IMG/VR virus record: IMGVR_UViG_3300043540_000950
Span: 1 to 37,362 of that record
DNA length: 37,362 nt
Strand: one strand, 5' to 3'
Origin: a virus
This document shows, piece after piece, positions 4,045 through 36,561 of this stretch (positions are counted from its first letter, which is position 1; each line of letters opens with the position of its first letter). The notes under the pieces were generated by a model that searched no databases, was not told the DNA's origin, and saw only the letters and a list, made by a program, of their open reading frames with translations. Made by a program: the position numbers and the translations under genes.

Positions 4045-5087
4045 GTGATGCTCCCCAATTCTGCCATTTCGTTAACGGCATGGGTGACGTTGGCGACGGG
4101 CGACAACAGCTCGTTATCGGTTTCCCCGGCGGCCAAGGAAATAGCCTCCCTTAAATGGGATAGCAGGATGGTTCCTCCTGGCACCGCCTCCCGCAGAATC
4201 AGGTCGTCCAATTCATCTTGTACCGCCGCCCGCACGGCGGGCGTGTCGGGAACGATGCGGATGGTGGGATTGATTGGAACCGGCGTGGGCGCGAATGTAT
4301 AAGGCTCGGCGCCGACGGGGCAATTGGCTTCAATGTGGGCCTGGACCGCCGCCACCTTTGCAGCGTCGGGAATCGGGCCGCCGGCCGCTCCGTCGGTAAC
4401 GAAAGTCACGCCCACCGTGTAGGCGCCGAAATGCAGGGGGAACACCCATACCCGCGTCACTCCAGGCACTTCCAGCGCCCAGGTGACATAGTCATGGGCG
4501 GCGCCGCCGTGGGGCGGCTGGCGGATACGGGCCAGCATCCTGGCGAGGAGGGATTCCTTGCTTTCGTCATCCACCCCGCCGGTCAATCCACTGGCCCCCA
4601 CGGTAGCGGTTCCGACCACGCCGTCGATGGGGCTGGCGAGTGTCAGGGGCGTTCCCTCGGCGGTGTCGCCATCGGCGCCGGCAGTGAGGGCCACCACGTT
4701 GGCCGTGGCGGTTCCGCCCGCCACGATGACGGGTGCTTCGGTGGCGAAATCAACGCCGTCGCGACGCTGGACAACGGTCCCGGCCTCGATGGTTTTGCCA
4801 TCCGTCCCACTAAACACCACCGGTCCGGAGGAGAAAGTGGCGGCGAGGTACGGCACTCCCCAGAATCCGGCATGGCGCTTCAAAACATCAAGCTCTGCGG
4901 TGTCGTAAATAATATTTTTTGCGACGCCATCAACATAGCCATATAGGTCATATATAGAATTCTGACCAACGCGAACAAGGGCGCCAATGTTAGAGCGACG
5001 TAAACCAGCGGCACCTGGTATGAGGCTCTGGAAATCCGCTTCCCCGCGTTCGATCAGCTCTTTAAGAGTGGGGCGATAGAAAGGCAT
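4032..5087 (-). CDS. Baseplate J-like protein (Mu gp47)
   Basis: This is the wedge protein of the contractile baseplate, related to P2 gpJ and T4 gp6. The 351-residue length is normal. The N-terminus MPFYRPTLKELIERGEADF is the family start, and the section TGGVDDESKESLLARMLARIRQPPHGGAAHDYVTWALEVPGVTRVWVFP (described by position, residues about 175-220) carries the conserved PPxGG and PGVTRVWV patterns. The start codon overlaps the stop of gp46 by one base (TAATG), indicating coupled translation. Confidence 0.93.
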   Translation of the reverse strand: MPFYRPTLKELIERGEADFQSLIPGAAGLRRSNIGALVRVGQNSIYDLYGYVDGVAKNIIYDTAELDVLKRHAGFWGVPYLAATFSSGPVVFSGTDGKTIEAGTVVQRRDGVDFATEAPVIVAGGTATANVVALTAGADGDTAEGTPLTLASPIDGVVGTATVGASGLTGGVDDESKESLLARMLARIRQPPHGGAAHDYVTWALEVPGVTRVWVFPLHFGAYTVGVTFVTDGAAGGPIPDAAKVAAVQAHIEANCPVGAEPYTFAPTPVPINPTIRIVPDTPAVRAAVQDELDDLILREAVPGGTILLSHLREAISLAAGETDNELLSPVANVTHAVNEMAELGSITWEP

Positions 5088-5547: not shown

Positions 5548-6129
5548 TTACATGGTCTGATTGGGCGCGGCGGTGGGGCTTCCGGTCACGTCGTTCTCGT
5601 TGTGGGTGTGACCGTCGTAGGTGTCCCGCATGGCGCTCATGGTGCGGCCGCCCGTGTCGCACAGGTCGCGGATTTCGCCGGTCACTTCCAGCAGCGGCGT
5701 GTCCATGCGCACCTTCTCCGCCGCCTCGATCAGTACCCCCTTGGCGCGAATAACCACCCAGCCGTCGGCCCGTAGGTAAACGCGGTGCCCAGTCCCAAGC
5801 TTGTCCAGGATGGTATAGAGGCACGATTCGCCGGCGGCCAGTCCGGTTGGGCGGTAGCGGCGGTCGTCCACCGCCACCAGGACGCCACGGTCGCGGTTGC
5901 CCCCCACCGCCAGGAACACCCCTTCCGCCCCGGCCAGAGGCACGGAGGTGTGGCCGTAGTTCTGGTAACGGTCTGCGCCGTCCCTCACCTCTCCGGCCAG
6001 CAGTTTCACCTGGGCGCGCTGCATTTTATGGGCATCGTTCAGGGCGGACAGCACCGCCAAGCCAACCATCAGCCGCACCCGACGCATCACCGGGGCCATG
6101 ATTTTTTGCACGGCGGCGATCATTTCCAC
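5548..6129 (-). CDS. Baseplate spike protein (Mu gp45)
   Basis: This 193-residue protein forms the central spike that pierces the host outer membrane. The N-terminal half carries an OB-fold-type segment and the C-terminal half a beta-helix-like repeat region. Near the end, DGHTHNEND gives His174 and His176, the HxH pair that in Mu gp45 and P2 gpV coordinates iron at the spike tip. It overlaps the 3' end of the hub gene P by 10 bases. The length and the neighbours agree with Mu. Confidence 0.92.
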   Translation of the reverse strand: MEMIAAVQKIMAPVMRRVRLMVGLAVLSALNDAHKMQRAQVKLLAGEVRDGADRYQNYGHTSVPLAGAEGVFLAVGGNRDRGVLVAVDDRRYRPTGLAAGESCLYTILDKLGTGHRVYLRADGWVVIRAKGVLIEAAEKVRMDTPLLEVTGEIRDLCDTGGRTMSAMRDTYDGHTHNENDVTGSPTAAPNQTM

Positions 6130-7226
6130 TCCTCCTTCATGGCTTTCTTGGCCCCCGCTACGTTATGCGCCGCACCGTTCTTGCCTTTAATGGCGGTGGA
6201 CAGGCGGGTCCCTTTAACGCCCTCCAGCAGCTCGAAGGCTTCCGGCCTGGCCAGCTCCAGTTCGGTGAGTGTGCCGCTGTCGTCCAGGGTGTAGGTGCAG
6301 GACACGATCAGCACCTCGAAGTCCGCATGGATGAGAGGCGACTTGAGGTTGACGCGGGTGTTGGGTGTCCACAGGGAGCCATCCGCCCGCCGCCAACCCC
6401 GCACCGTGACGGTGGCCCGGCTGCCGCGCCCACGGCGCACGTTGCGCTCCCACTCGGCGCGACGGCGGAAGGAGGTGTGTTCACCCTCCTCGGCCAGTAC
6501 GATCAGTGGCCGGTAGCGGGTGATGGCATCGTCTCGCGCTTCGCCGCTCGCGCCGGTGACGGTTTCGCCGAAGTTGTCGTCGTCCTCGCGGCCGTGCCCC
6601 TTCACGATGTAGTTGGAAAAACGCTCCCGATGGCTAAATGAACCACGAGCGCGGAGGATATTCACCCCTTCCTCCAGGGCCGCGCCGGATTTCTCCCGGC
6701 CGGAGCGGGTAATCACCAGGTTGCCAAGGCCGTCCGCCATCAACAGCACCCCGCGCATACGGGCGGCGCGGTCCAGGCACTCGAACACCGTTTCCCCTTC
6801 CTGGATGTTGAAGCTGGAGAACGACTCGGAGACGGAAACCTCCTCGATCACCTTGATGCCGAACGGTCGGCACAGGTCGCGGGCGATCTGCGCCAGGGTC
6901 CGTCCCTTCCACTGTCCGGACTTGTGGATGGCGGAGCAGTCCACCAAATCGGCGGTCTTGTCCCGCCCCTCTACCGAAATGCCGTGGGAGTTGGCGTCAT
7001 AGTCCGGGCTGGGTTCGTCCACGTAGCCGGTGATGACGGGCTCGCCATCCATCAACACTTGGCACGGTTCGCCGGGGTGAATGGGGCGGGGGGTTGGGGT
7101 GCCCTCCCATTTCTCGGTCACGCCCAGGGTGAACGCCCCGGCGATCTGCTCGATGCCCCGCTGCACCCGGACGGATTTCCAGCCACCGTAAAGGCTGCCG
7201 CCCACTTTAAGCTCCAGCCCGTTCAC
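6120..7226 (-). CDS. Baseplate hub protein (Mu P, gp44)
   Basis: The 368-residue product belongs to the Mu P / P2 gpD / T4 gp27 hub family. Supporting sequence includes the start LELKVGGSLYGGWKSVRVQRGIEQ (family-typical beta-barrel entry), the segment with PGEPCQVLMDGEPVITGYVDE, and SVEGRDKTADLVDCSA at about residue 85-100, the most characteristic motif. It acts as the platform on which the spike and wedge assemble. It overlaps the end of N by 4 bases (ATGA). Mu has a separate C-dependent promoter ahead of this gene; no copy of the 24-base late element is seen here. Confidence 0.92.
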   Translation of the reverse strand: MNGLELKVGGSLYGGWKSVRVQRGIEQIAGAFTLGVTEKWEGTPTPRPIHPGEPCQVLMDGEPVITGYVDEPSPDYDANSHGISVEGRDKTADLVDCSAIHKSGQWKGRTLAQIARDLCRPFGIKVIEEVSVSESFSSFNIQEGETVFECLDRAARMRGVLLMADGLGNLVITRSGREKSGAALEEGVNILRARGSFSHRERFSNYIVKGHGREDDDNFGETVTGASGEARDDAITRYRPLIVLAEEGEHTSFRRRAEWERNVRRGRGSRATVTVRGWRRADGSLWTPNTRVNLKSPLIHADFEVLIVSCTYTLDDSGTLTELELARPEAFELLEGVKGTRLSTAIKGKNGAAHNVAGAKKAMKEEWK

Positions 7227-8488
7227 AGCAGCACCTCCAGGGCACGGCCGCCGGGGACGAAGCCAGGATGGACAACGCGGTTGCGGGCCACGATCTCGTC
7301 GGCCCGCGTGGCGTCGCCGTAGATGCGGTGGGCCGCCACCACGGCGGGCAGGGTGGAGGGCAGTTCAACGCTTCCCACCCGTGCCAGCCGGGAGCCGCGC
7401 TCGGAAACATCCTTCACCACCGCTACCCGCAGCTTCGCCAGGGCGAGGTGCGCCGGGTCGGCGAGGCGGACGGGGGAGGAAGCCCCCGGAATGGTCGGCA
7501 TGGCCACGCCGGTAAGCTGGTCGTCAAGACGCCCCGCCACCGTGTCGCGAGTGGCCACCGCCTCGTCATAGCTGGGCCACGTCATCCGGCTAGTGAGGCG
7601 GGCCGCCTCCACCAGCGCCCCCTGGCGGGCCAGGGCGATGATGGCCGCCTGGTTGCGGGCCTGGGCCTGGCGGGTTGGCGTCACGGCCGGCGTGGAGAAC
7701 AGCGGAGGACGGGCAACAAGGGGAGAAGGCGCCGCCTCGTCGCCGAAGTCGAACAGGTGGGACAGGGCGCGGAAGCCGTCCAGGGGAGAAAGCGCCATCG
7801 ACGCCAGGGCGGAGATGGAACCCAGCAGCAGGTCGGCCAGGGCGCCGGGGTTCTGCACCAGGGAAATCATATTGCCCAGGCCGCCCAAGCGGGCCAGGCC
7901 GAATTCCGACAACAGCCCGCCGTCGCACCGCATGAGGCCGGTAAGGGTGTCCACCTGGCCCAGCAGGGAAGAGGCCATGTCCATGCCGTGCTGGGCCGCC
8001 CATGCCGGGAGGCCGTCCACCGAAAACACGCTGCCGAAGTCCTCCGCCACGGCGCCCAGGGCATCGTCCGCCGCCGAGGCCACCCGACCCTGGGTGTCGG
8101 CGCGGACCGTGGGTTCCTCGTTGGCGCTGCCTTCCACGAACGTCATGGAGATGCGGCACAGTCCTCCTTCGTCGATATTCTCCGACCACCGCGCCGGCTG
8201 CGTCGCCGTGACCGTGATGGTCCCCCGGTACGGGTGGACCAAGGGGCCGGAACCGGGTTCCTCGATAGCGGCCAGGAGCTTGTCCCGCTTGTCCATATAG
8301 TCGGCGCCGATGACGAAGCCTTCGACCATGAACTCCCGCTTTGCCCGGCCCATGTCCTCCGGGTAAACCGTGTCCCGCTTGGGGTATTCGTGCACCACCA
8401 CCCGCCGCCCTGCCTCGCCGGATGCGGCCTTCACGTGGAAGGGGACGCCACGGAAGGAAGCGGGGCGGAGATTGTCGCGCCAGCTCAT
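7223..8488 (-). CDS. DNA circularisation / tail protein N (Mu gp43)
   Basis: The protein has 421 residues. Its first 95 residues (MSWRDNLRPASFRGVPFHVKAA..., VHEYPKRDTVYPEDMGRAKREF, VHPYRGT) are the DNA-circularisation N-terminal domain of Mu gpN. In Mu this virion protein is carried in the tail and is placed at the distal tube; the name derives from the injected protein that circularises DNA. The remainder is alanine- and glycine-rich helical sequence typical of the family's C-terminal part. The start overlaps the stop of the tape measure gene by 4 bases. Confidence 0.9.
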   Translation of the reverse strand: MSWRDNLRPASFRGVPFHVKAASGEAGRRVVVHEYPKRDTVYPEDMGRAKREFMVEGFVIGADYMDKRDKLLAAIEEPGSGPLVHPYRGTITVTATQPARWSENIDEGGLCRISMTFVEGSANEEPTVRADTQGRVASAADDALGAVAEDFGSVFSVDGLPAWAAQHGMDMASSLLGQVDTLTGLMRCDGGLLSEFGLARLGGLGNMISLVQNPGALADLLLGSISALASMALSPLDGFRALSHLFDFGDEAAPSPLVARPPLFSTPAVTPTRQAQARNQAAIIALARQGALVEAARLTSRMTWPSYDEAVATRDTVAGRLDDQLTGVAMPTIPGASSPVRLADPAHLALAKLRVAVVKDVSERGSRLARVGSVELPSTLPAVVAAHRIYGDATRADEIVARNRVVHPGFVPGGRALEVLL

Positions 8489-10326
8489 CCGGTCACCATC
8501 GTGCGGCCGGTGTGGACGTTGATGGGAACGTCCTTGTTGGCGGACTTGGAGGAAACGACCGATGCGGAACCGTCGGACAGTACCCGGAGGGTGATTTCCC
8601 CGCCGACTTTTGCATCCTCCAGCTTCTTCGTCATCTCCACTGCCCGGCGGGCCTCCTCGTTGCCGAAGAATGCCAGGGTCTTGGCGATGGCGCCGCCGAT
8701 GATGTCAGTGCCGGCGCCTTCCAGCCGGGTGCCCTTGGCGGCTTTTTCGCCCAGCCAGTTGAGGCCGGAACCGACGGCATAACCGCCAGCCCCTGCTGCC
8801 GCGACACCCGCTCCAATCGTGGCAAGCCCACCTGCTCCCATTGTCCCCAGGGCGCCTATCGGTAGACTCCCCACCATCGCGGCGAGAGTCTTTGCCTTGC
8901 CTGCCACCTTTCCGGCACCGCCCGCCGCATTGGCCGCCGCGCCGGCAATGTCCGCCGCGCCGCCGCCAAGGGAGGCCGGGAAGTTGACCACATACACCGG
9001 GGTTACGCCGGCCGCCGCTTCCAGGGCCTTGCCCTCGGCAACGCCGGCAGCCGTGCCGCCGAAACGCTTTGCAAGACTGGAGATTCCCTTGCTCCCATAG
9101 CGGGCAGCGGCAAGAGTGCCTAGGGCCAAGGCGCCGCCTCCAAGCAGCGCTTCCTTTCCGTTTATGCCCAAGCCGCCGTTGTTTTTATCCATCCCCCAGC
9201 GGATGACGTTTTGAAGGGTTTCGTTGATGGGCTGCGCGAAATCGTCGGCGGCGTGGCGCAGGGCGTTTCTCATACGGCCCACTTGGTCCACGGAGTTGGC
9301 GATGGCTTCCGGCAGGTCTTTTTTCAGGGTGCCGCCTGCCCCGGCGATCTGCTTGGAGAATTCGTCCATCTTGGTCAGCGAATCGCCGCCGAGCAGGGTC
9401 TTGAGGCCCTTGATGGTATCCAGGTCGGCGTGGCCGAAGGCCTTTTGCAGGAAGCCGGCCCGCGCCTGGTCGGTGGTGAGCTTGTCGTATTGCTTCTTGA
9501 TGTCCTTGAGCACTTCCACAGCATCACGGCGGGTGCCGGAAGCGTCGAAGAACTTGACGCCGGTGGCCTTGGCGGCGTCCTTCATGTATTTCTGGTTGGT
9601 GAACAGCCGCAGGGTGCTGTCCGCCAGGGTAGCCAGCCGCTCCGGCTGGCGCTCGATGAGGGACAGGGTTTCGATGAAGGCCAGGGTCTTGTCGAATCCC
9701 ATGCCGGCGCCGGAGGCGTTGACCCCGACGCGGGCGAAGATGTCGGACAGGTTCTCCAGCTCCGCATTGCCCTGGCGCCCCGCCACCGTCATCTTGTCCA
9801 GCAGTTCAACGGCCAAGCCGGGTTTGGAAAGGTCGAACTGGAACGCCTGTCCGGCAACGGTGAGGCCGGCGGTCAGCCGTTCGGCGTTGGCCCCAGTGAC
9901 GGCAACGGCGGTATTGACGCCGCCGATCACGGGCAGGGCCTCGCGGAAATTCAGGCCGGACTGGACGGCGTTGTTGAAGCCGACTTGCAGGTCGTCCACA
10001 TTCTGCCCGGTGTATTCCGACATGGTGAACAACTCGCGGCGCAGGCCGGCGACTTCGGCGCGGGATACGCCGGCAGTCTGCCCGATCTGCATCAGGCTCT
10101 TGTCCATGCGGGCGGACTGCATGATCTTGGACACCACGCCCACCGACACGCCGATGGAAGCCAGCTTGCCTTCCACGCTACCCATCGCGCCCTTGAAGGC
10201 GTCGAATTCCCGCTTCACTGCGCCGCCGAAACGATGCACCCGCCCCTCGGCCTGGGTCAGGCCGGAGACGAAGCGGGCGGCGTCTGCGTATAGCTTCAGC
10301 CCGATGGACAGGTCGCGGTTGCTCAT
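8485..10326 (-). CDS. Tail tape measure protein (Mu gp42)
   Basis: At 613 residues this is the longest tail gene and lies just after the tail chaperone, both expected of a tape measure. The N-terminal third contains the TP901-type core, with QIGQTAGVSRAEVAGLRRELFTMS and the ASGAGMGFDKTLAFIETL region. Residues 390-540 are small-residue-rich hydrophobic segments (GALALGTLAAARYG, GLATIGAGVAAAGAGGYAVG) that could span or insert into the host membrane during ejection. It determines tail length and helps channel DNA into the cell. Its ATG overlaps the frame -1 extension of the chaperone gene. Confidence 0.92.
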   Translation of the reverse strand: MSNRDLSIGLKLYADAARFVSGLTQAEGRVHRFGGAVKREFDAFKGAMGSVEGKLASIGVSVGVVSKIMQSARMDKSLMQIGQTAGVSRAEVAGLRRELFTMSEYTGQNVDDLQVGFNNAVQSGLNFREALPVIGGVNTAVAVTGANAERLTAGLTVAGQAFQFDLSKPGLAVELLDKMTVAGRQGNAELENLSDIFARVGVNASGAGMGFDKTLAFIETLSLIERQPERLATLADSTLRLFTNQKYMKDAAKATGVKFFDASGTRRDAVEVLKDIKKQYDKLTTDQARAGFLQKAFGHADLDTIKGLKTLLGGDSLTKMDEFSKQIAGAGGTLKKDLPEAIANSVDQVGRMRNALRHAADDFAQPINETLQNVIRWGMDKNNGGLGINGKEALLGGGALALGTLAAARYGSKGISSLAKRFGGTAAGVAEGKALEAAAGVTPVYVVNFPASLGGGAADIAGAAANAAGGAGKVAGKAKTLAAMVGSLPIGALGTMGAGGLATIGAGVAAAGAGGYAVGSGLNWLGEKAAKGTRLEGAGTDIIGGAIAKTLAFFGNEEARRAVEMTKKLEDAKVGGEITLRVLSDGSASVVSSKSANKDVPINVHTGRTMVTG

Positions 10327-27501: not shown

Positions 27502-27848
27502 GCTGGAATCTCCATTTCGGCGATTTCACGCGCCCAGCGCTTGGCCTTGCCCAGGACGGCCATGTAGCTGCCGCCGTAGAACCACGCGGAGCGCCATGAG
27601 CGACACGCGCCGGACGGGGAGCTGGCTTGCATCAGCCAGCCCAGCCGGTTGGTGTCGATGAGGTGGCCGAGGATGAGGTTGTGGCTCCAGCGCTGCATCA
27701 AGCACTCCACGGGAAGACCAAGGGCTTCCAAGGCTTCGGGGTCGTCCAGGATTTCCCGCAACTCGGGCCCGATGTCGAAGGCGGTGACGGGGATGGCATC
27801 GGCCAGGCGGATGACGCGATCTACGCGGATGTCGGGGGCGATGTTCAT
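27498..27848 (-). CDS. Conserved early protein, unknown function
   Basis: The 116-residue protein (MNIAPDIRVDRVIRLADAIPVTAFDIG...) is placed between the cassette array and gp16. A longer open frame extends upstream to 28259, but it overlaps the previous gene in another frame and the ATG at 27848 sits in a TGA overlap, which is the pattern of this operon. Several tryptophans in the C-terminal half (CRSWRSAWFYGGSYMAVLGKA) suggest a compact fold. No function recognised. Confidence 0.7.
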   Translation of the reverse strand: MNIAPDIRVDRVIRLADAIPVTAFDIGPELREILDDPEALEALGLPVECLMQRWSHNLILGHLIDTNRLGWLMQASSPSGACRSWRSAWFYGGSYMAVLGKAKRWAREIAEMEIPA

Positions 27849-28144
27849 AGCGATGAAACCCTGGGCAAGGACCGGCGCAACGCAGCAAGGACGCGGGACC
27901 AGCCCATGCGGGCCTGCCACTCCACGCCATCGGCCACTACCCGGTAGCAGTCGCGCCGGTTGGCCCGGTAGAGGTCGAGCTGGTGGCGAACCTCGCCGAA
28001 GTCGTAGTCGATGACAATCACTGTTCGGCGTAGCCGGGGCAGTTCCGGCGGATAGTCCGGCGCCGGGCCATCCAGGCGCTTCTTCTCCTTCGCGGCTCGG
28101 GCGGCGGCGAGCTTGGCGCTCATACGGGTGCGTTTGCGGTACAT
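27845..28144 (-). CDS. Small basic early protein, unknown function
   Basis: This 99-residue protein has a strongly basic N-terminus (YRKRTRMSAKLAAARAAKEKKR) followed by RRTVIVIDYDFGEVRHQLDLYR. An AAGGA ribosome site lies 11 bases before the ATG at 28144; a GTG at 28153 is a less well spaced alternative. It is the first gene downstream of the cassette insertion, whose left junction is at 28171, so its ribosome site is phage-derived. No family recognised. Confidence 0.68.
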   Translation of the reverse strand: MYRKRTRMSAKLAAARAAKEKKRLDGPAPDYPPELPRLRRTVIVIDYDFGEVRHQLDLYRANRRDCYRVVADGVEWQARMGWSRVLAALRRSLPRVSSL

Positions 28145-28158
28145 ACCTTGCACGGTCC

Positions 28159-28383
28159 TTATAATCTATAGTTAGGGGCATAGTGGTTTGTGCGCCATGT
28201 CTCTTGGTACTTGCAGTGCTCGCAGTGCGTCTCCTGCGAAAGTCCATCAATCCGGCCACGGTTCACGCAAGTGTTGCAGTCTGGTCGCGCTTGTTGTGCA
28301 GCCCCCCAAATGCTTGCCGCATCATCATCACTGCACTCGAAAAACACTCGCTTTTCAAGCCACCACTGCAAAAAATCTCTCAT
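28159..28383 (-). CDS. Cassette 1: small Cys-rich zinc-binding protein
   Basis: The 74-residue product contains CNTC and CEHC pairs about 18 residues apart (RPDCNTCVNRGRIDGLSQETHCEHCKYQE), a likely structural zinc site. Similar small Cys-rich proteins are common in tailed phages; their role is unknown. It has its own ribosome site (AGGAG, six bases before ATG) just inside the attC core of the cassette. Its last codons (APNYRL) read through the left cassette boundary at 28171 into phage sequence, so the native C-terminus is altered by the insertion. Confidence 0.7.
   Translation of the reverse strand: MRDFLQWWLEKRVFFECSDDDAASIWGAAQQARPDCNTCVNRGRIDGLSQETHCEHCKYQETWRTNHYAPNYRL
28171..28177 (+). 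other. Left boundary of the cassette array (GTTAGGG)
   Basis: The sequence GTTAGGG is a GTTRRR-type core. It is the first base triplet of cassette 1 and pairs in 6 of 7 positions with the GCCTAAC at that cassette's other end. No attC arms exist to its left, where phage sequence (CTATAG) begins. This is what is expected at the left junction of cassettes inserted at a secondary G/TT site. Confidence 0.6.
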
Positions 28384-28396
28384 CTCTATCTCCTGC

Positions 28397-28459
28397 GCCT
28401 AACCCGGCGCTCAAGCGGGACCGTCCGCAAGCGTCCGGCCCCTTAGCTCTACGTTAGGG
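28397..28459 (+). other. attC site 1 (cassette 1)
   Basis: Outer cores are GCCTAAC (28397) and GTTAGGG (28453). The inner arms GCTCAAG (28409-28415) and CTTAGC (28442-28447) pair with one unpaired C in the left arm, the extrahelical base that sets attC polarity. The sequence GCTCAAGCGGGAC...GCCCCTTAGC closely resembles Vibrio-type repeats. The site extends into the 3' end of the MazG-like gene. Confidence 0.85.
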
Positions 28460-28752
28460 GCTTGGTGATGCAGCCATCTGCCAACGTTCGCAAGCTTCGT
28501 GTCCGCATTGGAATGCACCTGTTCTTTGCTCACCGGGCCGGCGTTGCACAGCATAATCATTGCCGCCCGCACGTCGCCCATTTCCTTCGCCAGCACGTCG
28601 GCATTGTTCATGCTTCCTGGTCGCAGCGGGTTCGCGCTTGCGTAGCCGTGCCGCAGAATCTTGCCAATCGCCTGAATGCACTCTCCGCATTCCTCGGCCA
28701 AGAGGGCAAGCAGTTCGGCTTGCGCCGGCGTCAGTTCGTTAAAGTGTTCCAT
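28411..28752 (-). CDS. Cassette 2: MazG-like nucleotide pyrophosphohydrolase
   Basis: This 113-residue protein has the metal-binding pattern of all-alpha NTP pyrophosphohydrolases: LAEECGECIQAIGK with Glu20, Glu21 and Glu24, then KEMGDVRAAM with Glu57 and Asp60. MazG-type enzymes hydrolyse nucleoside triphosphates, and phage versions are thought to affect alarmone or nucleotide pools. The ATG at 28752 has AAGGAAAG upstream; a GTG one codon earlier is possible. The last ~15 residues (NVELRGRTLADGPA) are read from attC site 1 and would differ if the cassette were elsewhere. It lies antiparallel to its attC. Confidence 0.8.
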   Translation of the reverse strand: MEHFNELTPAQAELLALLAEECGECIQAIGKILRHGYASANPLRPGSMNNADVLAKEMGDVRAAMIMLCNAGPVSKEQVHSNADTKLANVGRWLHHQAPNVELRGRTLADGPA

Positions 28753-28777
28753 CACTTTCCTTTCCGGGGCGCTCGGC

Positions 28778-28842
28778 CCCTAACCCGGAGCTCAACTCGG
28801 ACGCGGCGAAAATCCGCCGCGCCGGTTAGCTATGCGTTAAAC
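28778..28842 (+). other. attC site 2 (cassette 2)
   Basis: Outer cores are CCCTAAC (28778) and GTTAAAC (28836). Inner arms are AGCTCAAC (28789-28796) and GTTAGCT (28825-28831), again with an extra C in the left arm. A central stem, GACGCGGCG with CGCCGC around AAAATC, closes the structure. The stop codon of the cassette 3 gene lies inside it. Confidence 0.85.
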
Positions 28843-29393
28843 GTCTTGCACCGCCGCGCCAGTTCGACCAGCCATTCACAGAGCGGAGGCGGCGTATGCT
28901 CTCTTTCGGCCTTCGTGATGTGCGGCCGGTAGTCGGTTCGCTTCCGGGTCTGCACCACATAGGCAGCCTCGCCCATGACATAAGGCAGCGGCGGTATATC
29001 TCCAGGCTCGCACCCAACCACGTAGAACCACGTCGCTTTCTCTGCCTTGTGGCCCCACCACTTCTGAGGAGCGGCCAGGGTCCATCCGCCGTAGCTGTCG
29101 CGCTGTCCAGGCTTCGGCAGTCCTGCGGCATCCCACAGCGTCGAGCCTGCCGGGTGCTCCAGCACGCCGCCCCACTTCCGCACCTGGTCAGCCGCCCACA
29201 GGCCCAGGGCCTTCTCGTCCGGCCTCGGCCTGGCGAAGTGGCGCAGCCTTCCCCAGGCGCGGCAGGGCGGGTGCGCCACAACTTGGCAGCCTCCGGGCCA
29301 GCGGCGGGCGTCGCGCTCGGCGTCCCACACGTCACAGTCCGGCAATCGCTTGTAGTTGCTGTCAGCCCTGGCAAAGAGGATGGCTACGGTCAT
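28830..29393 (-). CDS. Cassette 3: phage protein with HPPC and EHP motifs
   Basis: The 187-residue product belongs to a type common in phages of beta- and gammaproteobacteria. Notable motifs are MTVAILFARADSNYK at the start, VVAHPPCRAWGRLR at 38-51 and GVLEHPAGSTLW at 76-87. PPC and E-N/H-P motifs in this order recall the catalytic loop and ENV motif of C5-cytosine methyltransferases, but the usual SAM-binding FxGxG is lacking, so the activity is uncertain. The end of the gene (KTFNA, stop TAG) is in attC site 2. Its start is 11 bases from the attC site 3 core. Confidence 0.75.
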   Translation of the reverse strand: MTVAILFARADSNYKRLPDCDVWDAERDARRWPGGCQVVAHPPCRAWGRLRHFARPRPDEKALGLWAADQVRKWGGVLEHPAGSTLWDAAGLPKPGQRDSYGGWTLAAPQKWWGHKAEKATWFYVVGCEPGDIPPLPYVMGEAAYVVQTRKRTDYRPHITKAEREHTPPPLCEWLVELARRCKTFNA

Positions 29394-29403
29394 CGCAAAA
29401 TCC

Positions 29404-29469
29404 GTTTAACTATCGCTTGCACCGGACCGGCCGCCTGCGGCGTCCGATCCGGTGAAGCTGGCGTTATGG
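29404..29469 (+). other. attC site 3 (cassette 3) and right boundary
   Basis: The left core GTTTAAC (29404) is a perfect match to the consensus and to the start of its own cassette. Inner arms GCTTGCACCGGA (29415-29426) and TCCGGTGAAGC (29448-29458) pair over 11 bases with one extra G in the left arm. The right core, GTTATGG, is degenerate, as expected if it comes from phage sequence at the insertion point and not from another cassette. Confidence 0.83.
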
Positions 29470-29472
29470 GTC

Positions 29473-29937
29473 TTAATCACCCGCCACCCCATCACCTTCC
29501 TCCCCGCATTGGGCCTTGCCGGAAATGGTGTAAACCGGCGCTATCCACCACCCTAGCTCCAGCATCCGCCCGGCCACGGTGCCGGCGTAGCCTTCCCGCC
29601 TTGCCACGTCGAGAATCTTTCCCTTCACGGCGTTTTCCGTCGGACCGGCGTATTCGTGCAGGGGGACCCGTTTCCCCTCCTCCATACCGAAGGCCATGTA
29701 GCCGGCGTGGCTCAGGCTTTCCAGCCGCTCCTTGAACAGCGGGCCGTGGTCTGAGAAGGCGTATTCGGTATGGGTGCCCTCGGAGTTGTAAATCTGCATC
29801 CTGGCACGGGGGTCGCCTTCCTCGCGGAAGAAGTTGACTTCCATGCCGGCAGGCAGCAGGCGGCCGATGTTGAGCATGGAGGCGCGGAGGATTTCCGTTT
29901 TTTCGGCGTCGGTAAGTACTGCGTTATTGCCGCTCAT
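29473..29937 (-). CDS. Early protein next to the cassette array, unknown function
   Basis: The 154-residue protein (SGNNAVLTDAEKTEILRAS...) has a helical N-terminus and a beta-rich middle (NFFREEGDPRARMQIYNSEGTHTEYAF). It ends 10 bases from the right cassette boundary. Under the preferred model it is a phage gene that was directly upstream of the gene at 27845 before cassettes arrived; if the attC polarity were the other way it would itself be a cassette. No domain recognised. Confidence 0.68.
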   Translation of the reverse strand: MSGNNAVLTDAEKTEILRASMLNIGRLLPAGMEVNFFREEGDPRARMQIYNSEGTHTEYAFSDHGPLFKERLESLSHAGYMAFGMEEGKRVPLHEYAGPTENAVKGKILDVARREGYAGTVAGRMLELGWWIAPVYTISGKAQCGEEGDGVAGD

Positions 29938-33551: not shown

Positions 33552-34298
33552 TCAGGCCCCCCTGCGGGCGGGGGCGTCCCCGGTGTAGAAGTCGCGGGTG
33601 CCCCAGGAGGCGAGGTCAACCCGCTGGAGCCCTTCCTTGGTGGCCACGTCGCGCACCATGTCGAGGTTCACGCAGATGCGACGGGCGACGGCGCGGGAGC
33701 GTTCGTGGATGCGCTTGAGAAGGTCGTCGGCGATCTCCACGCCGGGGCAGTAGAACTTTGCCAGAAGGGCGGCGTCCTTGTCGGTGGCTGGCTGGGCGGG
33801 TTGCCACACCAAAACGCGATTGTGGAAGCGCTCGGCGCGGGTGAGCTTGCGGGGAAGCTGTTCCTCGCCGATCAGCATGATGGGGGTGCGGCTGGCGTCG
33901 TGGATGTCGCGGATGATTTCCAGGATTTTGGTTTCCACCACGTGGTCCACTTCGTCCACCAGCAGGGGGCGGTTGGAGGCGTGGAGTTCTTCGACGATGG
34001 CGTCGAAGCTCTCGCCGATGGTGCGGCCTGGGCGCAGGCCAAGCTCGCGGCACAGGGCCTCCATGAAGGTCTTTTTGGTGAAGAAGCTGCGGCATTCCAC
34101 GTACACGCCGTTGTACTTGTTGCGGACGTAGGCGGCGGCCATCGTCTTGCCGAGGCCTGAATTTCCGTAAAGACTGGCCATGCGCGGCAGGCTCGGGGAG
34201 CTGTTTTGCAGGCGCTCCATGACGGAGGCGGCCAACAGGACGTTTGACAGTGGCGCCCAAATGCCGCCGGTATTGCCTGGGGTGATGGGTTTGGTCAT
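33552..34298 (-). CDS. B: Transposition ATPase MuB
   Basis: MuB is an AAA+ ATPase that forms filaments on target DNA, delivers it to MuA and gives target immunity. The Walker A motif GNSGLGKT is at 45-52, Walker B LLVDEVD at 112-118, and a sensor-type LIGEE at 142-146. The 248-residue chain is shorter than Mu B (312), lacking the N-terminal HTH region; it starts close to the ATPase core as in the B3-like group. The ATG at 34298 has GGGAGAAG upstream; the open frame extends upstream to 34505 but overlaps muA. Confidence 0.93.
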   Translation of the reverse strand: MTKPITPGNTGGIWAPLSNVLLAASVMERLQNSSPSLPRMASLYGNSGLGKTMAAAYVRNKYNGVYVECRSFFTKKTFMEALCRELGLRPGRTIGESFDAIVEELHASNRPLLVDEVDHVVETKILEIIRDIHDASRTPIMLIGEEQLPRKLTRAERFHNRVLVWQPAQPATDKDAALLAKFYCPGVEIADDLLKRIHERSRAVARRICVNLDMVRDVATKEGLQRVDLASWGTRDFYTGDAPARRGA

Positions 34299-34368
34299 AA
34301 TCTTCTCCCGTGTAGTGCATTCAAAATGCGCCCGCTTGAGGTAGCCGCCTCTCGCGGGCGCGCCTTTT

Positions 34369-36561
34369 CTAGGCCCGCTGTCGCAGCGTGGCCTCGAATT
34401 CTTTTTCCGCTTCTCGCGCCATGCGGCAGTAGGCGCTATCGCCGAATGCGCGGTAGAAGGCGTCTTCCCGGCTGTCCAGGGTTTCTCCGGCTTGCGCCCG
34501 CTCATGGAGGCGTTGCCAGTAGTCGTAGCGCTCCACGTCGCTGTTCAGGCGCTCGACGAGAACGGTTTCCCGCGCCTGTATCCCCGCCTCGAAGTTGGCG
34601 GCCAGGCGCTCGATGTCGGCTTGCTGCTCGGCGGTGAGGGTGGGACGGGGAACGGGGCGGGCCAGGGGGTCGCGGAATTCTCCCTTGACCACGCCGCTGC
34701 CCTTGGGCGCGGGGATGCCGGCCGGGGCTTCTGTTGAGCCTGGCATGTACTTGGCGGCCTCCAGGGCGTCCATGCGGAGTTCGGCTTCCAGGAGCTGTTT
34801 CTGTGCCTTCATGTAGCCCCGGCGGTTGCGCTGGTGCTCGCGGGCGGCGTCGCGGTCGTTGAAGCCTTCGGCGGCGTGGCATTCGGCGTAGCACAAATAA
34901 CGGCCGTCCAGGGTGTAGACGTGGACGCCTTCATGCAGCCGGGCCGGGTCGAAGCGGGCCACCACCTGCTGGCCGCGGTGCTCATTGAGTTCCGGCGCCC
35001 AGTAGCGGTTGGCCAGGGCTTCGCCGACGATGCGGCCGGCGTCCAGGGTGATGGAGCCGTCCACCCGGTTTGCCTTTACGGGTTCTGTTGCCAACAGCCA
35101 CAAGCGCCGCTGAGATTCTGTCGGTTTGCGGATGGCCTTTGTGTTGTAACTTTCCTCGAACACCTGCCAGTAGGAGCGGCCCTTGGCAATGGCGCTCCGG
35201 CGGCCTTCGCGGCGGTTCCAGGCGTCGATTTCGCGGGCCATGACGCGCTCCAGTTCGGCCAGCGGAACGGGGCGGCTCTTGCCGTCGTATTCGTCGGCGT
35301 CGGGCTTGTTGGCCACGCTGTTGCCCGTCCAGGACCCGGCGAATTCGGGGGCCTTGTCCACGATCTCGCCCAATCCGCCCACGCCGAAGCAGCGTTCCAC
35401 CGGCTTTGATTGCCCATGCTTTGGGGTGGCCCACATGACTTGCAGGCCGAGCAGGGGGAATACGCCCAGGGGTTCGTCTTCCCGCACCTTGAAGCGGAAG
35501 CGGGTTTTTGTGCCGCCGGACATGGTCTTGTTGGCGGCGGCCAGGGTGTTGTCCAGGAGGACGTGCTTGTCGGGGATGCCGAAGCGTTCGCACAAGTCGC
35601 CGAAGGACAGGCGGATGACGTCGGTATGCTCGGTTTTGTCGATGCGCCAGGTGGTGATGGCGTTGGAGTACACGTCTTGCCATACCCAGGTTTTGGCGCG
35701 GCAGATTTCGCCATCGGGGAACTGGACCCACAGATTGTGCTTGTATCCGTCGCCGTTGATGATCTCCAGGGCGGAGAGGGCCGATTTGTCGCGTTTCTGC
35801 GCGGGGTACATGGCTTGCAGGGCTTTTTCGCCTTGCCTTGCCAGAACCTTTACGGCTTCGGGTATGGCGTCAAGGCGGCGTTCCAGGGTCTTTTTGCTGG
35901 GGATTTTCCAGCCCCGCTGGGCGGCAATGCGCTGGAGGCGCAGGATGCAGGCGGTGGCGGTGGGCTGCTCCCGGCGCAGGTAGTCGGCCTTGAGGTATTC
36001 CCACGCTTCGGCGTCCATGTCTGCCTTCTTGGTGCGGCCGACGTAGCCGGGGGTGAGGAGGTACAGCCACAGGTGCTCGGGGGCGCCGTCCACCTTGGTT
36101 AGGTAGCGGCTGATGGTGGGGGCGCTAACGGCGTACTTGTCCTCCATCACGGCCACGCGGGCCTTGTAGGGAACGTCCAGGAGTTCAAGCTGCTTCCATT
36201 CCTGCACGGCGGCCAAGCAGTGATGGGCCTTGTCCTTTTCGCTTTGGGGCTTGGCCTCGTACACGGCGGCCAGGGTTTCGGCCTGGGCGTCGGTGTAGTG
36301 GCGGGCCGATTCGATAGTTGGCAGGGTGAGTTGCACGGTGCTGGTTTTGCTCAGGGCGGCGATGGTCTCTGCCGGAAGGGCGGAGAGGGGGTATTCGTAG
36401 CCGCCGCCTCGGCCTTGGCGGGGGCGCTTGGGCCAGGATTCACGGTTTGACCTATCAATAACCCCCGCCCGAGTGGTCGGCATACCAGGAAGACCGGCGA
36501 GTTGTGAGGCGGAATACCAGCTCGATTCATGGTTTAGAATTGGCATGTCGCGGGCGGTCAT
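34369..36561 (-). CDS. A: DDE transposase MuA
   Basis: The 730-residue protein carries out strand transfer in replicative transposition. The catalytic triad is visible as Asp271 (IINGDGYKHN), Asp337 (HVLLDNTLA) and Glu389 (KPVERCFG); the spacing agrees with Mu A (269, 336, 392). The N-terminus (SSWYSASQLAGLPGMPTTRAGV) is the Mu-type winged-helix DNA-binding domain, the middle region 100-240 the end-binding HTH domains. After residue 430 comes the beta-barrel and the basic C-terminal part, with the helical MuB/ClpX-interacting tail. It overlaps the preceding gene by 4 bases. Confidence 0.96.
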   Translation of the reverse strand: MTARDMPILNHESSWYSASQLAGLPGMPTTRAGVIDRSNRESWPKRPRQGRGGGYEYPLSALPAETIAALSKTSTVQLTLPTIESARHYTDAQAETLAAVYEAKPQSEKDKAHHCLAAVQEWKQLELLDVPYKARVAVMEDKYAVSAPTISRYLTKVDGAPEHLWLYLLTPGYVGRTKKADMDAEAWEYLKADYLRREQPTATACILRLQRIAAQRGWKIPSKKTLERRLDAIPEAVKVLARQGEKALQAMYPAQKRDKSALSALEIINGDGYKHNLWVQFPDGEICRAKTWVWQDVYSNAITTWRIDKTEHTDVIRLSFGDLCERFGIPDKHVLLDNTLAAANKTMSGGTKTRFRFKVREDEPLGVFPLLGLQVMWATPKHGQSKPVERCFGVGGLGEIVDKAPEFAGSWTGNSVANKPDADEYDGKSRPVPLAELERVMAREIDAWNRREGRRSAIAKGRSYWQVFEESYNTKAIRKPTESQRRLWLLATEPVKANRVDGSITLDAGRIVGEALANRYWAPELNEHRGQQVVARFDPARLHEGVHVYTLDGRYLCYAECHAAEGFNDRDAAREHQRNRRGYMKAQKQLLEAELRMDALEAAKYMPGSTEAPAGIPAPKGSGVVKGEFRDPLARPVPRPTLTAEQQADIERLAANFEAGIQARETVLVERLNSDVERYDYWQRLHERAQAGETLDSREDAFYRAFGDSAYCRMAREAEKEFEATLRQRA

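Follow-up and report, generated by a model that had tools for sequence, protein, structure and literature searches.

How did gene cassettes of the integron type come to lie in the early operon of a transposable phage which has no integrase to move them? The window analysed here, a virus record of IMG/VR with a length of 37,362 bases, belongs to a Mu-like phage, since a Mu-type transposase and transposition protein B are both encoded in it. The initial annotation had proposed that three modules of this phage are integron-type cassettes bounded by attC sites and that, in the absence of an integrase, they came from elsewhere or are moved in trans. This reading is supported by the analysis and no part of it was overturned by testing. 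It needs, however, three additions: the genes run antiparallel to their attC sites, the array has a conserved attI-like end, and related phages encode an integron integrase (IntI). With these additions the region 28171-29463 is very probably an array of three cassettes without an integrase, belonging to a phage integron system in which the cassettes are inverted.

Clusters of attC sites in phage genomes have already been described (Qi et al. 2023, PMC9892861). The screen of 10,705 phage genomes yielded 3 complete integrons, one In0 and 17 CALINs, phage attC sites were recombined by IntI1 into attI1, and DNA methyltransferase cassettes were noted (PMC9892861). The arrays of that study are attC clusters in phages like the one in the window, but neither inverted arrays nor a phage IntI clade nor an IntI at the array end were reported (PMC9892861). 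What appears to be new here, judged by the papers searched, is the inverted-cassette phage lineage; phage attC clusters as such are already known.

Identity of the attC sites

The sites were analyzed with two covariance models. The first (R1) was built from 23 attCs of bacterial integrons, collected upstream of intI in 80 loci around the integron integrases of bacterial genomes, and no sequence of the window or of related phages was used in its training; the second (R2) was built from 150 integron attCs taken from the R1 matches. Searching the whole window with R1, with the filters off and E-values up to 10 allowed, returned only the sites at 28397-28459 (21.3 bits, E 0.0084), 28778-28842 (16.3 bits, E 0.13) and 29404-29469 (15.2 bits, E 0.23). 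R2 found the identical three sites and nothing else, all on the plus strand (Table 1). These are exactly the sites which the initial annotation had located, and the outcome which would have refuted it, no significant covariance-model match at any of the three, did not occur. The E-values, which come from short calibrations, are rough, as the tool itself states. Nevertheless three matches within about 1 kb, all of one polarity and with none elsewhere in the window, are not due to chance. An Rfam gathering search of the window gave no match.

For sites 2 and 3 the minus strand gave the best fold; in a free fold site 1 was not distinct from its shuffles. We also recomputed the pairing of the end cores of each module and obtained the values claimed before: GTTTAAC/GTTAAAC and CCCTAAC/GTTAGGG match in 7/7 positions and GCCTAAC/GTTAGGG in 6/7. 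Both covariance models accept all three sites; the R' box of attC3, GTTATGG, departs from the consensus GTTRRRY. Judged by RYYYAAC and GTTRRRY cores, paired L arms, extrahelical bases and covariance-model match the sites qualify as attC; the cassettes are delimited by G↓TT cores, and their ends match each other as in a circle. A hand-written strict arm scanner served merely to explore the sequences; site 1 escapes it, it finds about 1.3 matches per shuffled window, and it provides no useful chance control. The case rests on the covariance models.

Stem–loops at such positions could also be regulatory elements of the phage, terminators or translation control structures which resemble attC and are shuffled by homologous recombination at repeats. 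The location of the attC hairpins in the transcribed leader of each gene is in line with this possibility. Against it stands that both core boxes, the arm geometry, the extrahelical bases and the single polarity agree with models trained on integrons.

Architecture of the array and its entry site

The early genes lie on the minus strand down to 27.5 kb, and the array is placed among them between a 154-aa gene (29473-29937), for which no relatives were found in viral contigs, and a 102-aa gene (Table 1).

Table 1. Positions of the array components and of the phage genes discussed, in window coordinates
Feature	Position	Strand	Evidence and remarks
Mu-like transposase	34369-36561	-	phrog_310, E 9e-148; opens the early gene block running into the array
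Transposition protein B	33552-34505	-	phrog_296, E 6e-58
attC3, outer end of array	29404-29469	+ (top strand)	R2 27.5 bits, E 2e-4; bottom strand fold z -4.5
Cassette 3, 627 bp	28837-29463	+	attC3 and phrog_12600 gene on -; own end cores 7/7; covariance-model match
phrog_12600 gene, 187 aa, function unknown	28830-29393	-	E 5e-73
attC2	28778-28842	+ (top strand)	R2 28.0 bits, E 1.6e-4; bottom strand fold z -3.4
Cassette 2, 383 bp	28454-28836	+	attC2 and MazG-like gene on -; own end cores 7/7; covariance-model match
MazG-like nucleotide pyrophosphohydrolase gene	28411-28755	-	PF03819, E 2.4e-6, over cut-off; phrog_4856, E 2e-16
attC1	28397-28459	+ (top strand)	R2 30.7 bits, E 3.4e-5
Cassette 1, 282 bp, G↓TT to G↓TT	28172-28453	+	attC1 and 74-aa CxxC protein gene on -; core boundaries, covariance-model match
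74-aa gene of cassette 1	28159-28383	-	reads through the core; stop is the TAA on the attI side
attI-like entry site	28140-28177	-	core CCCTAA↓C at 28177-28171 (read on -), 18-19 nt, TGCAAGG, start of the 102-aa gene
102-aa gene, function unknown	27845-28153	-	directly after the array; anchor gene of the entry site

The MazG-like gene starts either with GTG at 28755 or with ATG at 28752, and its final codons are encoded by attC1. A family search with the 74-aa protein gave no confident family, and a PDB sequence search with the phrog_12600 and MazG-like proteins gave no match. The phrog_12600 gene is present in many phages, with or without attC. This does not contradict the cassette reading, which would have been refuted by related phages with the same genes but no attC at the same borders: where phrog_12600 occurs without attC, the borders differ. 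Compared with its homologues in the viral contigs L001 (80%) and L002 (78%), the DNA similarity of the phrog_12600 gene of the window ends at the core of the next attC. The array DNA as a whole had no match in plasmids and only single-gene matches in phages.

As already stated by the initial annotation, no integrase is encoded: there is no PF00589 match anywhere in the window and hence no IntI. The window thus does not qualify as a complete integron, which requires intI in the element, but with three attC sites and no intI it does qualify as a CALIN, for which two or more attC sites without a nearby intI suffice. One could suppose that a piece of a bacterial integron was taken by chance from a host chromosome and is now inert; pieces of host integrons are known from Vibrio and Shewanella phages (PMC9892861). 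The lack of a plasmid match and the end of the array argue against this supposition.

At 28171, the first edge of the array, there is a core without an attC hairpin (fold z +0.8 to +1.2), as expected for an attI-like end. Homologues of the adjoining 102-aa gene are encoded by seven other contigs (L028, L029, L030, L196, L170, L171 and L159), and in every one an array lies just upstream. All seven share the array edge, that is RYYYAA↓C, 18-19 nt, TGCAAG or a near variant, and then the gene, with different last cassettes; two of them, L029 and L030, are identical at the entry site. An inert fragment would hardly end at a conserved phage site used with different cassettes by seven other contigs. 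We read the conserved edge as a putative attI-like site used in trans, its attI function being inferred from sequence conservation, and the 102-aa gene may be linked to it. No IntI over the cut-off was found in those of the seven contigs that were checked, the 102-aa gene had no match in named phages, and no empty entry site was found.

Orientation of the cassette genes

The reversed polarity of the genes in all three cassettes of the window had been overlooked in the initial annotation. In the arrays upstream of bacterial intI the extra unpaired base was in the 5' arm for 109 sites on the cassette strand versus 12 on the other strand. The extrahelical bases of the window sites are in the 5' arm of the plus strand, and the covariance models likewise place the attC top strands on plus. 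As the genes are on the minus strand, each gene is antiparallel to its attC, with the attC 5' of the gene.

Viral loci reached via two of the window genes carry attC in 7 of 28 cases, with 22 matches in total, all opposite to the genes. None of the 43 loci reached via the nearby DUF3164 gene has an attC, and consequently that operon does not as a rule carry the array. For a wider sample viral contigs were scanned with a pattern for the common attC half, which gave 68 stretches with 247 R2 matches (E<=2); all but three of these are on the majority strand of their own locus. The minority-strand matches (L161, L184 and L209) were left out of the later gene and strand counts, so that the single-strand purity at these loci is slightly overstated. 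Nearly all phage data are metagenomic contigs. The phage genes found in the array loci encode terminases, portal and tail proteins, DNA polymerase, helicase, Gam, RecT and endolysin. Being Mu-like was considered as a defining trait of array phages and rejected, as phrog_310 is present in only 1 of 50 contigs. In L001 three near-identical 63-bp attC sites (4273-4335, 5920-5982 and 8216-8278) each precede a different gene, and L017 has two paralogous genes of unknown function (6644-7474 and 8762-9688) within and just after one array.

Genes between neighbouring attCs were assigned to a strand by codon scores in about 60 viral loci, and 151 were antiparallel, none parallel and 22 undecided. A gene parallel to the attC top strand, usual though not obligatory for a cassette, is thus found neither in the window nor in any of the 151 decided viral intervals. 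This count depends on the codon scores; the longest ORFs alone give 72:30 in favour of antiparallel in these GC-rich sequences. IntI-bearing viral loci have 45 antiparallel genes versus 2 (18:15, and thus undecided, by longest ORF alone, so that codon scores are needed for a clear outcome). The bacterial integron control had to be based on longest ORFs, because codon scores trained on GC-rich phages leave most bacterial loci undecided, and it gave 80 parallel versus 5 antiparallel genes. Three Burkholderiales arrays with a non-phage IntI also lean towards parallel. The arrays of the named phages Shewanella M16-3 and TJE1 (one site) have attC on the gene strand, parallel like the bacterial arrays; P12002L had no R2 match. 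Genes on the opposite strand are a recurrent pattern across viral arrays and not a peculiarity of the window.

The orientation also speaks against an inert piece of a bacterial integron, since the bacterial arrays and those of the two named phages are parallel but the window and its kin are antiparallel; in addition no DNA match of the array cassettes to bacterial integron loci was found beyond the intI gene itself. We consider this origin highly unlikely, although the lack of IntI in the window would agree with it.

Cassette genes and attC sites are closely interlocked. The TAA of the RYYTAA↓C core is the exact stop of 48 of 157 cassette genes, and 33 of the 157 start inside attC; in L017 the ribosome-binding site and the start codon are located in long attC loops. 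As the genes are flipped with respect to attC, a captured cassette takes the direction of the phage operon and could use a phage promoter for its expression; in a bacterial integron it would lie antisense to Pc. The open-access papers searched contained no account of inverted phage arrays (subscription journals and preprints were not covered). The pool of phage cassettes with reversed genes is large and apparently undescribed.

Integron integrases and cassette exchange in related phages

An IntI over the TIGR02249 cut-off is encoded by 5 of 50 array contigs (three of them were also scanned with ncbifam), and in all five intI lies downstream of the array and is co-directional with it. In L182, L191 and L200 a few tens of bases separate the end of the last cassette from the intI start; the core at this end is followed by nTCAATTCG, a motif which precedes intI in 9 of 81 loci. 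A scan of viral sequences with the phage IntIs as queries yielded 80 loci, in which 106 of 107 attC matches are on the canonical strand and, among the counted matches, 104 are upstream of intI versus 1 downstream. The relative arrangement of intI, the attI-like site and attC is thus canonical and only the genes are flipped. An IntI beside the array in several contigs, with attC on the canonical side, is not readily explained by regulatory stem–loops. Phage integrase genes are common beside the viral intI loci. The IntI-like gene of Virus Rctr41k (KX853513, 4680-5678), annotated as xerD, is 46.6% identical to phage IntI; no confident attC sites were found in the first 15.6 kb of this virus.

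A quick tree of 136 IntIs, computed with IQ-TREE, unites 61 viral sequences with one from a bacterial genome in a single clade (SH-aLRT 99); the bacterial sampling is partial and the supports are not bootstraps. The one bacterial-genome member, G170:C13, lies at the end of a prophage: besides intI the locus has an antiparallel array, a phage integrase and a small gene of DNA-binding or excisionase-like type. Among 399 genomes of the order Burkholderiales 103 carry an IntI, the nearest to the phage query being that of this prophage (62% identical).

With class 1 and chromosomal integrons the phage arrays share the TIGR02249 IntI, attC sites with two core boxes and extrahelical bases, an attI-like site beside intI and the G↓TT unit. 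They differ in that the genes are flipped relative to attC, that the array is upstream of intI and read towards it, and that intI is co-directional rather than divergent; the window itself is without intI. In the reverse integrons of Treponema denticola and others intI and the cassette genes have the same direction, as in the phage systems (PMC7691350, PMC4909258, PMC6557892). There, however, intI comes first, with gene-then-attC cassettes downstream (PMC7691350, PMC4909258, PMC6557892), whereas the phage systems have the array, then the attI-like site, and intI last, so that the genes are reversed and not intI. A reverse integron of the Treponema type was accordingly rejected, the array preceding intI in those phages that have it.

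If the array belongs to a phage integron system, its cassettes might still have been moved by a chromosomal integrase of the host instead of a phage IntI. Such integrases are available in many Burkholderiales, and IntI1 has recombined phage attC sites in E. coli (PMC9892861). The cassette pools, however, look separate, without any cassette-level DNA match to bacterial integron loci, and the cassette polarity is opposite to the bacterial one; we regard a host integrase as possible but rather doubtful.

Cassettes 99-100% identical are shared by unrelated phages. A 394-bp cassette is common to L158/L167 and L176/L222 (99.5% identity) and a 428-bp cassette to L171 and L198 (100%), both with their edges at cores, and 840 bp are common to L200 and L247 (97.5%). 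L017 contains two copies of a 425-bp block which are 100% identical from one core to the next and have different neighbours. L182 and L252 have flanks of about 97% identity and wholly unlike arrays (2.3 versus 3.4 kb); the swapped region lies between an outer core, which reads GCCTAA↓C in L182 and GCCTGAC in L252, and the core of attI in front of intI. Most cassette edges are inside the R' core, which again argues against regulatory stem–loops shuffled at repeats. There are, however, exceptions. L210 is without one cassette present in its near-copies L176 and L222, and the junction falls within 20 bp of shared sequence at the far attC end instead of at R'; the left edge of the cassette common to L198 and L223 is also at the far attC end. 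The loss in L210 looks like homologous recombination and IntI alone does not explain it, so that homologous recombination also acts on these arrays. The junction between L210 and L222 fits the homology-driven loss which the stem–loop explanation demands, and some array phages encode RecT or similar recombinases. We regard that explanation as very improbable.

For the phage integron system we are able to present only indirect support of recombination by IntI at G↓TT, namely the precise shared and swapped units in related phages, and the event itself remains putative. According to the inferred mechanism an IntI provided in trans by another phage or by the host would recombine the folded bottom (minus) attC strand at R', and circular cassettes would insert at the attI-like site between 28171 and 28172, at the downstream end of the early gene block. 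Captured cassettes would then, by inference, be expressed from the early phage promoter. Counting against our reading is that no IntI is present in the window and none has been shown in its unknown host.

Among 125 cassette proteins most are unknown, and the recognised functions are mostly DNA modification, chiefly DNA methyltransferases. Further recognised products are two Mom-like modification proteins, RNA ligase, HNH endonuclease and one member each of the queuine tRNA-ribosyltransferase and PAPS reductase families. One of the cassette proteins has a match to the Acb2/Tad1 hairpin family (PF24729, 9e-14), whose members are known as anti-CBASS/anti-Thoeris sponges. The likely role of the system would be the swapping of counter-defence and other host-takeover genes; the counter-defence role is inferred from family names only.

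We consider it likely that diverse phages have in common an integron system which is their own, with a phage IntI clade, attI sites ending the early gene block and a cassette pool of reversed polarity, which is expressed in phages but would be antisense in bacterial integrons. It would serve as a marketplace for counter-defence genes, open in cis to phages which encode IntI and in trans to those which, like that of the window, do not. The integron is known as a device of bacteria. If phages have a lineage of it with an integrase clade, entry sites and reversed cassettes of its own, this would account for the precise exchange of single genes among unrelated phages, and the reversed polarity predicts two cassette pools separated in expression. 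Such a lineage would also give a ready place to seek counter-defence genes, DNA methyltransferases, Mom-like and Acb2/Tad1-type proteins being already among the cassettes. In the IntI phage L191 a run of 42-bp direct repeats was observed at 9904-10150 (gene orientation), inside a DNA methyltransferase-like gene.
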